64,000 bases of DNA, taken from assembly GCF_000226565.1 (NCBI RefSeq), contig NC_016041.1:3224001-3288000 (forward strand), read 5' to 3'. The first letter of the stretch is position 1; each line of letters begins with the position of its first letter. This document shows positions 55,154-62,751 of this stretch, in pieces. Position numbers and translations under genes: made by a program. The DNA comes from Glaciecola nitratireducens FR1064 (GTDB lineage Bacteria; Pseudomonadota; Gammaproteobacteria; Enterobacterales; Alteromonadaceae). The notes beneath the pieces were generated by a model. That model was not told the DNA's origin. It saw only the letters and a list, made by a program, of their open reading frames with translations, and ran no database searches.

Positions 55154-57277
55154 ATGAAAAATATAGGCAGTGACATGAAGAATGCAAAAGCATCATCGTT
55201 GAAATTCGGAAGAGCACTCTTAGCTTTGTCGGTCATAATGGCTCTGACGGCTTGTAATGGCGACGATGGTGATACAGGACCTGTTGGCCCAGCGGGTATG
55301 GATGGTCAGGACGGCATGAATGGTCAAGATGGTAGTGACGGTGCAAACGGCAGTCCTGGTTTTTCGGCTGGTCTATTTTTATTAAGCAATAACGGTCCAA
55401 CAAATGCGGGCACTGTCGATTTAATCGATCAAAACGCAGCCTCTTTAAAATCCTTCACCTCAGGTAACAATGAAGGAGTTGCTATAGATACTCTGGGCAA
55501 TTTAGTACATGCCGGTGATTCTGTAAATGGTAGCCTTCGCAGTGTTTGCCAAGTAGTTAATCGTAGCAGCGACGATAGTTACAATATGAACATCGACCGT
55601 GAGATTACAGGGCCAAATACCGGACTTATTAACCCTAAAGGCATCCATTTAGCTCAGCAAAGAGGCTTAGTTTTAGTTGCTGACTTTAACGGTATGCGCG
55701 TTAGTGTATTTGGTTCAGCCGCAGCCGGAGATGTCGCCCCGATCTCTGAAACGGTTCTAAGTGCAGCTCCTTGGGATTTGGCTTACGATGACGTTAACGA
55801 CCGATTGTTTGTTGCGTTAACAAACGGAACTATCGAAGTTTATGACAATTATGTTGACTCGAATTTTATGAGCAACACGCCTCGAATTATCATTCCAAGC
55901 GATGAAAACCAAACGCAAATTTCTGTTAATTTGCACGGAATAGCCTATGACCATCTGAGCGATAAATTAGTCGTCAGTGATGTTGGTTTAGCAAGTTCGC
56001 CTGATGATGGTGCATTGTTTGTCATTGAAAACGCCGCTATGGCGAGCGGCAATACTGCGGTTTCTCGTTCAATAGCAGGCCCCTTAAGTATGTTAGGAAA
56101 CCCTGTCGATATTATTTTAACTGACACTACTTTGCGCGTGGCAGAAAAATCTAACGATGCCGTATTAATTTATTCCAACATATTTGCCGGAGAAAGTGGA
56201 GATATAGCACCAAACTTGATGTCAAGCACCAGCAAACCTGAATCTTTGGTCGAGATTATGCCATCGACAACGCAGTCTGATGTGTCAGATATAGACCAAG
56301 GCAATGTGAGTTTTCGTGGTATCGCAGCTAGCAGCAATGTTGCTTCAGGTCCTACTTACGGCAGCGTGAGCACGTTTAGTCCCGCACTAAATACAACCTT
56401 ATCCACTTTTTCATACAATATCGATATTGAAAGTATGACCTTTGACCTACTCGGTGACCAATACACTACATTTGATAACAGCGCGACCTTAATGGGCGGT
56501 ATTGCAATTGCTAGTAGAGTGGCGACAGATCGTGACAACGGTATGTACAATACATCAAGAGATCGCGTGATAATGGGGGCTAATACAGGCTTAATATCAC
56601 CGAAAGGAATCGATGTTTCATCTGCTAATGGTTTAGTCTTTGTTGCAGAAAACAATGAAACAAGCCCCGGTATTAAGATATTCTCATCCTGTGCTTCAGG
56701 CGATGCAAAGCCTCTCGCAACGCTAGTTCCTGCCAATGGAGCAAGGCCTTGGGATGTGGACTACGATGCACAAACTGACAGAGCCTACCTAGCTTTGACC
56801 AACGGTACAATTGCGGTATTTGATCAGGTCGCTGCTAAGCTGATGTCTGGCATGACAACAATTACAGGTGAAGATAGGAACATCATTCCAGCCATCAGTG
56901 GCGTTGGCGTTGCGGCACCTACTAACCTGCATGGTATTGATTTTGATCCTGCAAGCGGTTCTATTATTGTGTCCGATGTGGGCAGTGCAGCAAGCCCAAC
57001 AGACGGCAAAATTTACGTTATCCCAAATGCAGAGCGTGTAAGCGGCTTAACTGATATTGCTGTTAATATTGCAGGGCCGAACTCATTGTTGGGAAATCCG
57101 GTCGATATAATGTACGACGGTAACAATCTTTTTGTCGCAGAGAAATCGAATGGGATCATCATGCGTTTTGACAATGTTCTTAGCAGCGCAGGAGGTGATG
57201 TGGCGGCGAATAGCAGTGTTCCACTCTCAGGTGCAGAGTCGGTTGCAGTATTGCCAAGTTATATCAATAGACTGTGA
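55154..57277 (+). CDS. collagen-like lipoprotein with duplicated beta-propeller lobes
   Basis: 707 residues. The signal peptide ends in a lipobox with Cys34 (MALTAC). Residues 36-68 are eleven Gly-X-Y triplets (GDD GDT GPV GPA and so on), a collagen-like stalk. The rest is made of NHL-like strands in two homologous lobes, about 150-360 and 470-705. Paired signatures are GPNTGLINPKGI / GANTGLISPKGI, LTNGTIEVYDN / LTNGTIAVFDQ and IVSDVGSAASP / VVSDVGLASSP. It is probably a surface-anchored protein; its ligand is unknown. GGAGAT lies before the start, and a hairpin terminator follows. I know of no named family that fits the whole. Confidence 0.75.
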   Translation: MKNIGSDMKNAKASSLKFGRALLALSVIMALTACNGDDGDTGPVGPAGMDGQDGMNGQDGSDGANGSPGFSAGLFLLSNNGPTNAGTVDLIDQNAASLKSFTSGNNEGVAIDTLGNLVHAGDSVNGSLRSVCQVVNRSSDDSYNMNIDREITGPNTGLINPKGIHLAQQRGLVLVADFNGMRVSVFGSAAAGDVAPISETVLSAAPWDLAYDDVNDRLFVALTNGTIEVYDNYVDSNFMSNTPRIIIPSDENQTQISVNLHGIAYDHLSDKLVVSDVGLASSPDDGALFVIENAAMASGNTAVSRSIAGPLSMLGNPVDIILTDTTLRVAEKSNDAVLIYSNIFAGESGDIAPNLMSSTSKPESLVEIMPSTTQSDVSDIDQGNVSFRGIAASSNVASGPTYGSVSTFSPALNTTLSTFSYNIDIESMTFDLLGDQYTTFDNSATLMGGIAIASRVATDRDNGMYNTSRDRVIMGANTGLISPKGIDVSSANGLVFVAENNETSPGIKIFSSCASGDAKPLATLVPANGARPWDVDYDAQTDRAYLALTNGTIAVFDQVAAKLMSGMTTITGEDRNIIPAISGVGVAAPTNLHGIDFDPASGSIIVSDVGSAASPTDGKIYVIPNAERVSGLTDIAVNIAGPNSLLGNPVDIMYDGNNLFVAEKSNGIIMRFDNVLSSAGGDVAANSSVPLSGAESVAVLPSYINRL

Positions 57278-61844: not shown

Positions 61845-62091
61845 ACTAACCTTTAGTTCAGCTGCAAAAAATCAAAGTAGCTGTTATCTTTATGACTGGT
61901 GGCGCAACGATTGAGCTACGCCATCAAATGCAACGCTAGCGTTATTAGTTTTGATTCCGAGAGATAGAACCGAATCGACCTAATGCATGCTCGCATTGAC
62001 TACTAAACGAGGTTAGTGCAGTTTGACTCGGATTATTGTAAAAATGCACTTTTCTTCAATATCAAATGAATAATTTAAGGATAAATTAAAC

Positions 62092-62259
62092 ATGAAAAAA
62101 TTAACTACTGCAGAAACTGAGCAAGTATCCGGTGGAGCATTACAATTTTTTATAGGCTACTTTGGGTCCAAACTGTTAGATGGAACGCTGAGGGCAGCTT
62201 CAGATGTTCACGACATGTATCAAGACCAGAACAGATCTCTACCCTATAATCGTCTGTAG
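62092..62259 (+). CDS. small peptide with double-glycine leader (bacteriocin-like)
   Basis: 55 codons, too short for most gene finders. The start is MKKLTTAETEQVSGG, the classical leader of double-glycine peptides, with Gly14-Gly15 and hydrophobic Val12 at the expected places. Cleavage would release ALQFFIGYFGSKLLDGTLRA and 20 more residues, a 40-residue peptide with an amphipathic first half and a polar tail. TTTAAGGA is ten bases before the ATG. The neighbouring gene encodes a membrane protein. No exporter with a C39 peptidase is in this window. It could be an unmodified bacteriocin or a signal peptide. Confidence 0.7.
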   Translation: MKKLTTAETEQVSGGALQFFIGYFGSKLLDGTLRAASDVHDMYQDQNRSLPYNRL

Positions 62260-62313
62260 TCTGGCGGGTTGATTACTTCATCAAAGACATAAATGAAGTG
62301 TAAACTCAAAAAG

Positions 62314-62360
62314 AAGAGAGTTATGCTTTGTGAACCATATTAAGAATAGCCTCTCTTTTT
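62314..62360 (+). terminator. possible terminator between the peptide and the membrane protein
   Basis: AAGAGAG (62314-62320) and CTCTCTT (62351-62357) pair across a 30-base loop that has an inner GCT/AGC; a T run follows. A weak terminator or attenuator here would reduce read-through into the next gene. Confidence 0.4.
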
Positions 62361-62394
62361 ATATTGCTAGTCTGTCATAAATAAGGAAATTACT

Positions 62395-62751
62395 ATGAAC
62401 AAGGAATGCTTTTTAAAACAAAGAACTTATGCTTGGCTTGCCTTTTTTTTTCTAACACTGACACTGGTTACAACTGCTTTTCGACATTCTGTTGAGACAC
62501 CGTACATTTTCAATACCATTGCCCCAATTGTATTTTTGTTGTTATTCATCACGTGCACCATTCCTGTCGTAAAGCCATCGCTGCCTGTCAAAAAATTTGC
62601 TCTTAGCAATATTTTTTGTGGATTGGGTGGCTTTGTCTACCTGATTGAAATTTATTGGTCAAACGCTGAGTTAATCATTGCAAGCTTTATTACTATCAGC
62701 CTCGTGCTTTCTATCAATAGCATTGTATTTCTAAAAATAGATCGACTTTGA
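62395..62751 (+). CDS. small four-helix membrane protein, possible immunity protein
   Basis: 118 residues. Four hydrophobic segments: YAWLAFFFLTLTLVTTAF, IAPIVFLLLFITCTIPVV, FCGLGGFVYLIEIYW and IIASFITISLVLSINSIVFL, with short polar loops and a basic end. I do not recognise a family. AAGGA lies seven bases before the ATG. It is the first gene after the double-glycine peptide, 135 bases away, which is where bacteriocin loci often place an immunity protein; that function is inferred only from position and membrane character. Confidence 0.6.
   Translation: MNKECFLKQRTYAWLAFFFLTLTLVTTAFRHSVETPYIFNTIAPIVFLLLFITCTIPVVKPSLPVKKFALSNIFCGLGGFVYLIEIYWSNAELIIASFITISLVLSINSIVFLKIDRL

Follow-up and report, generated by a model that had tools for sequence, protein, structure and literature searches.

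A double-glycine peptide gene and an adjacent candidate immunity gene in Glaciecola nitratireducens FR1064 form a putative class II microcin-like pair

In the stretch of 64,000 nucleotides analysed here (the window), a small gene encodes a precursor peptide with a double-glycine leader and is followed on the same strand by a gene for a small membrane protein (Table 1). Comparison with related genomes supports the peptide gene as real, the conservation of its leader and C-terminus, its pairing with the membrane gene and the presence of a set of export proteins elsewhere in the genome. With moderate confidence, we interpret the pair as a class-II-microcin-like peptide, exported in trans, together with a membrane immunity protein.

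Table 1. Features of the peptide and membrane protein genes in the window.
Feature	Position	Strand	Evidence
5' block with ribosome site AAGGA at 62077-62081	62066..62091	+	conserved across genus relatives
Precursor peptide gene, 55 aa	62092..62259	+	present in 4 of the 13 genus genomes (window's own counted); dN < dS
MKKLTTAETEQVSGG, a double-glycine leader with L (-12), E (-8) and V (-4)	62092..62136	+	invariant residues and leader-profile match
Predicted mature peptide, 40 aa, C-terminus LPYNRL	62137..62256	+	LPYNRL invariant in homologues
Membrane protein, 118 aa, four helices; putative immunity protein, probable remote VanZ-like relative	62395..62751	+	orthologues 3' of peptide gene; hhalign

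An earlier note on this DNA, made from the letters alone, had described a 55-codon frame with a ribosome site, a double-glycine leader and a remainder of 40 residues, and all of these were found at 62092-62259. The AAGGA site is placed 10 nt 5' of the peptide ATG, and the leader carries L4, E8, V12 and G14-G15 at positions -12, -8, -4 and -2/-1, a spacing which is canonical for double-glycine leaders. A canonical leader of this type occurs in one of the 457 ORFs of 30-130 aa in the window, and 30 first-order Markov versions of the window contained 29 such ORFs (of 21,595). Since about one is expected per window, the leader motif by itself does not exceed chance, and it is the conservation in relatives which lifts the peptide gene above it. 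Homologues with a conserved leader, on which the earlier note had made its claim depend, are present in 4 of the 13 genus genomes (the window's own, G006, G002 and G011). All of them are 55 aa long, and those from the three relatives share 44-71% identity with the window peptide. 20 of the 55 positions are invariant among the four genus peptides, including M1, K2, L4, T5, E8, V12, S13, G14 and G15 of the leader, and the LPYNRL end is kept in all five aligned homologues, one of which comes from another genus (G054). Between the window and G006 the peptide gene shows a dN of 0.21 and a dS of 1.69, the latter from just 36 synonymous sites. These comparisons indicate that the peptide gene is a real gene under purifying selection; a chance ORF was ruled out by the orthologues and the selection, despite the expected frequency of the motif.

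The 26-nt block in front of the peptide ATG is identical in the window, G006 and G002, and its last 20 nt are nearly identical in G011, where the DNA further upstream aligns poorly. A promoter scan gave 5 sites (2.9 expected), none of them on the plus strand upstream of the peptide gene. With a profile of the leader, the window peptide was found in its own genome at an E-value of 5.2e-8, the next match having 0.95. At E 0.1, a profile of the peptide had matches in 63 of the 395 genomes of the family, many of the weaker rows falling within frames of hundreds of residues, and just 17 rows in 16 genomes reached E ≤ 1e-3. Spread of the close peptide family by plasmids was considered and rejected, as a tblastn search of the peptide against 72,556 plasmid records gave no match at E 0.1. 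The predicted mature peptide has a pI of 6.8, a charge of -0.1 and no Cys. It is thus near neutral, and the corresponding charges are -1.2 in G006 and G002 and +0.6 in G011. Its structure was modelled as a helix at low confidence (mean pLDDT 64.3).

The second gene starts 135 bp downstream of the peptide gene and is preceded by AAGGA at 62383-62387. The 118-residue, four-helix protein in the same direction that had been claimed is borne out by the ORF at 62395-62751, which has four predicted helices. Hydropathy peaks lie at residues 11-29, 41-59, 68-86 and 93-111, and an AlphaFold2 model likewise shows four helices at low confidence (mean pLDDT 55.9). It had also been proposed to check whether peptide and membrane protein occur together in related genomes. 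This is the case, as the membrane gene is located directly 3' of the peptide gene in all four peptide-bearing genus genomes, with a broken frame in G011. The membrane protein of the window is 39-43% identical to its genus orthologues (39-41% to those of G006 and G002). Identity is 93% for metC, 95% for ilvH, 100% for cspA, 84-89% for two M16 peptidases and 66-67% for the export adaptor described below, so that the membrane protein is the most diverged among the genes compared. A known anti-phage family was set aside, as no PADLOC match was obtained at E 1. The spacer between the two genes (62257-62395) is rich in hairpins (z -2.6) but shows no apparent conservation in G006 and G002, which gives no ground for a regulatory role.

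In the four peptide-bearing genus genomes the pair adjoins cspA-ilvH-ilvI, of which ilvI was not seen in the window. The neighbour on the other side is metC in the window, G006 and G002 and a desaturase gene in G011. In G010, metC and cspA lie 262 bp apart with no pair between them, compared with an interval of 1,121 bp in the window, and the remaining eight genus genomes have no pair in the stretch examined around cspA. Elsewhere in the window, a 707-aa lipoprotein-like ORF (55154-57277, plus strand) has Gly-x-y in a collagen-like stretch close to the N-terminus, followed by two similar halves.

The earlier note had predicted that a C39 exporter would be encoded elsewhere in the genome, and one was detected. 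The genome (one contig of 4,134,229 bases) contains a single C39 match, a 746-aa ABC protein about 77 kb from the peptide gene, in which the three catalytic residues C51, H124 and D140 are intact. Their spacing of 73 and 16 residues is that of CvaB, whose triad is given as Cys32/His105/Asp121 (PMC9746304). The exporter is adjoined by an HlyD-type protein (Pfam HlyD_3, 48.1 bits, cut-off 22.2), and a TolC is encoded about 14 kb from it (TIGR01844, 350.9 bits, cut-off 225.15). Exporter and adaptor score above the Pfam cut-offs and below the cut-offs of the NCBIfam families shown (for the adaptor TIGR01843). The exporter has counterparts with 81-82% identity in G006 and G011 and with 83% and 71% in G002, where it is found in two pieces. 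C39 exporters do not track the peptide, because they are present in all 13 genus genomes. The peptide had been claimed to be secreted; this part of the claim is well supported by comparison, while its antibacterial action and the immunity function of the neighbour are inferences. An ORF of 64 aa, located about 6.5 kb beyond the exporter and not within the window (L015:17617-17811 (+), G000:C1:3215616-3215810), has a double-glycine leader of another type, VLSVAQQLEVFGG; ORFs similar to it occur in G002 and G006 (39% and 31%). The leader profile misses this differently built candidate, which may be a second cargo of an exporter with more than one.

Neither member of the pair matches a family in Pfam or NCBIfam over the cut-off. 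For the membrane protein in particular, no VanZ match was found at E 10 in Pfam, where the curated cut-off of PF04892 was not reached, or at E 1 in NCBIfam, and most of the VanZ-like motif YE..Q..FD..D is absent. A profile of the membrane protein matched 33 of 395 family genomes at E 0.05, four of them strongly, and many of the remaining matches carry stops or lie in large frames. After the orthologues, and amid noise, small VanZ-like proteins appeared in G338, G270 and G047, with E-values of 3.5e-4 to 3.2e-3 that apply to a single genome each in a search of 395. Comparison of alignments by hhalign gave a probability of 89.1 (E 2.3e-6) for the window family against 17 VanZ-like proteins and of 76.7 (E 2.1e-5) against 13 such proteins, the nearest kin being left out, both sets having been gathered with a profile that held rows of the window family (3 of 9) and therefore not being fully independent. 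Against a VanZ-like alignment of three sequences the probability was 0.3. The membrane protein is thus likely, but not certain, to be a remote VanZ-like relative.

Across the family, a VanZ-like profile found 44 matches in 37 of the 395 genomes at E 1e-3, of which 43 loci were analysed (G344 was left out and five duplicate loci were skipped). One of the VanZ-like sequences used, L147, began at an inner codon. We searched their surroundings for double-glycine ORFs of 30-130 aa that end between 450 bp before and 100 bp after the VanZ-like start. Such an ORF lies upstream on the same strand in 18 of the 43 loci and in none of 43 in either control, downstream or on the opposite strand. Without the window orthologues and the loci already matched by the peptide search (L118, L120, L121, L123-L125, L139 and L155), 13 of 35 loci have one. 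The other 25 of the 43 loci fail this strict test. On a tree of the VanZ-like proteins, peptide presence requires 10 changes, the mean of shuffled labels being 14.7 and 8 of 500 shuffles reaching so low a number; here 21 of the 43 loci were labelled by eye as peptide-bearing, those beyond the strict test being L123 (decayed), L125 and L140. For peptide class, sorted by eye, the tree needs 4 changes, compared with 6.4 on average after shuffling, and 4 of 500 shuffles gave as few; this test covered 16 rows, the labels 'none' and 'other' and two genus orthologues being left out. This points to peptide classes which follow the VanZ-like tree, i.e., to co-inheritance by class, on a quickly built tree with long branches in which 17 of 40 inner branches are open. 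The window group falls into an unresolved set together with the peptide-less VanZ-like proteins nearest by profile and the peptide-bearing L118, L126 and L127. No peptide was found beside these nearest VanZ-like proteins (G338, G270 and G047) or their kin L122, L145 and L159-L162. In 375 genomes of the order, the VanZ-like profile matched seven at E 1e-5; two of these belong to another family, and neither has a double-glycine ORF just upstream.

Several of these loci are described here individually. In G054, the relative beside the LPYNRL peptide passes the Pfam cut-off for VanZ (L074, 35.3 bits, cut-off 30.1). Double-glycine peptides that carry SSGGQMN..RR close to their end were observed in L118, L126, L127 and L151, each 5' of a VanZ-like gene, and this class spans three genus codes as given (g1, g9, and g9 twice in G020). 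In G376 (L076:5880-6515), an in-frame stop interrupts the peptide gene, in which no GG was seen, while the VanZ-like frame after it is open, so that the locus looks like an orphan immunity. G032 (L082:5926-7006) encodes a related double-glycine peptide, followed by a gene for a Rce1/CPBP-type membrane protein, which is above the Pfam cut-off, and by a short VanZ-like frame. CAAX-type proteases have been reported at bacteriocin loci (PMC9298176).

From these comparisons, the following mechanism is proposed. The double-glycine leader of the 55-aa precursor would be recognised by the sole detected C39-peptidase ABC exporter of the genome, and the precursor would be cleaved after Gly15. An unmodified peptide of 40 aa would then leave the cell via the HlyD-type adaptor and TolC. 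It would kill close relatives which do not have the locus, probably by acting on their inner membrane or on a membrane protein. The four-helix protein (probably VanZ-like, though diverged) would reside in the inner membrane of the producer, where it most likely confers specific immunity. Its fast divergence and the VanZ-like gene that is kept beside the decayed peptide gene of G376 are as usual for immunity genes. Three points do not fit the microcin reading, namely the broken partner gene in G011, the split exporter in G002 and the mature peptide without positive charge. G011, with an intact peptide and a frame-broken membrane gene, is awkward for an essential immunity; this frame break or the split in G002 may be a draft error or decay.

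Double-glycine leaders and C39 exporters serve signals too, and the exported peptide could be a pheromone with the membrane protein as receptor or accessory. Being short and near neutral and ending invariantly in LPYNRL, the peptide could act as a recognition signal. We regard this as unlikely, since no kinase or regulator was seen beside the pair, whose neighbours are metC, cspA and ilvH/ilvI or a desaturase gene (G011), and since related peptides differ widely in their mature parts. Furthermore, a membrane protein of merely 118 aa that matches no family and diverges faster than any other gene compared at the site argues against a receptor.

Quite unlikely in our view is a peptide exported for matrix or biofilm control, with the membrane protein as a helper or unrelated. 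Small double-glycine proteins of Synechococcus that act in this way are described (PMC4997328), so that non-antibacterial representatives exist, and the retention of the peptide beside a broken membrane gene in G011 would agree with it. The recurrence of one and the same membrane-protein family as neighbour (18 of 43 loci, 0 of 43 in the controls) and the co-inheritance by class speak instead for a cognate partner. That the peptide is bacteriocin-like and its VanZ-like neighbour a helper in maturation or export, rather than an immunity protein, appears very unlikely. The close spacing in many loci would suit such a helper, and G011 and the VanZ-like genes without a peptide misfit a strict immunity; against it stand the fast divergence, the VanZ-like gene retained beside the decayed peptide gene in G376, and the description of C39 exporters as proteins which themselves cut and export such precursors (PMC9746304).

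The preferred reading, a microcin-like peptide with an immunity protein, was compared with known systems. Class II microcins of the microcin V type in Enterobacterales, as described in PMC9746304, share with the present system a precursor with a double-glycine leader and a small adjacent candidate immunity gene (here 118 aa with four hydropathy peaks), as well as a C39 ABC exporter with an intact Cys-His-Asp triad of equal spacing, an HlyD-type adaptor as membrane fusion protein, and TolC. The present system differs from them by its mature part, which has 40 aa and no Cys, by the distance of about 77 kb between exporter and precursor genes, and by an antibacterial action that is putative. In Moraxella catarrhalis, the double-glycine peptide gene mcbC is likewise followed by a small gene without database relatives, mcbI, whereas mcbA and mcbB, which encode its transporter, belong to that operon too and a protective effect of McbI has been demonstrated (PMC2761928); for the window pair, the exporter is encoded far away and the membrane protein is a putative protector. 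The VanZ-like family PF04892 also consists of small multi-helix membrane proteins, from which the window protein differs in the points given above. VanZ is known for glycopeptide resistance, and its molecular action is described as not clear (PMC6697439); a role of it in peptide immunity is not known from the literature found. The window leader resembles that of the lactobin A/cerein 7B family of class IIb bacteriocins (TIGR03949). The window peptide itself gave no match to TIGR03949 at E 1 and did not reach the curated cut-off, and its three genus homologues scored 12.3-15.8 bits (cut-off 21.5) over the leader and its edge. A literature search that covered few subscription papers found no link between VanZ-like proteins and double-glycine peptides and no paper which combines double-glycine, Alteromonas and bacteriocin.

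By 2022, only 10 class II microcins had been validated, most of them from E. coli (PMC9746304). The marine bacterium studied here adds a peptide family for which its genome encodes the complete export set. Cluster-based searches would miss it, given the distance between exporter and peptide gene. From the recurring VanZ-like partner, a function of small VanZ-like proteins can be proposed and put to the test. Tentatively, these proteins could be an immunity fold that is widespread in Alteromonadaceae and matched to double-glycine peptides, with the window pair as a fast-diverging branch, and the VanZ of glycopeptide resistance may descend from proteins that shield the envelope against secreted peptides.
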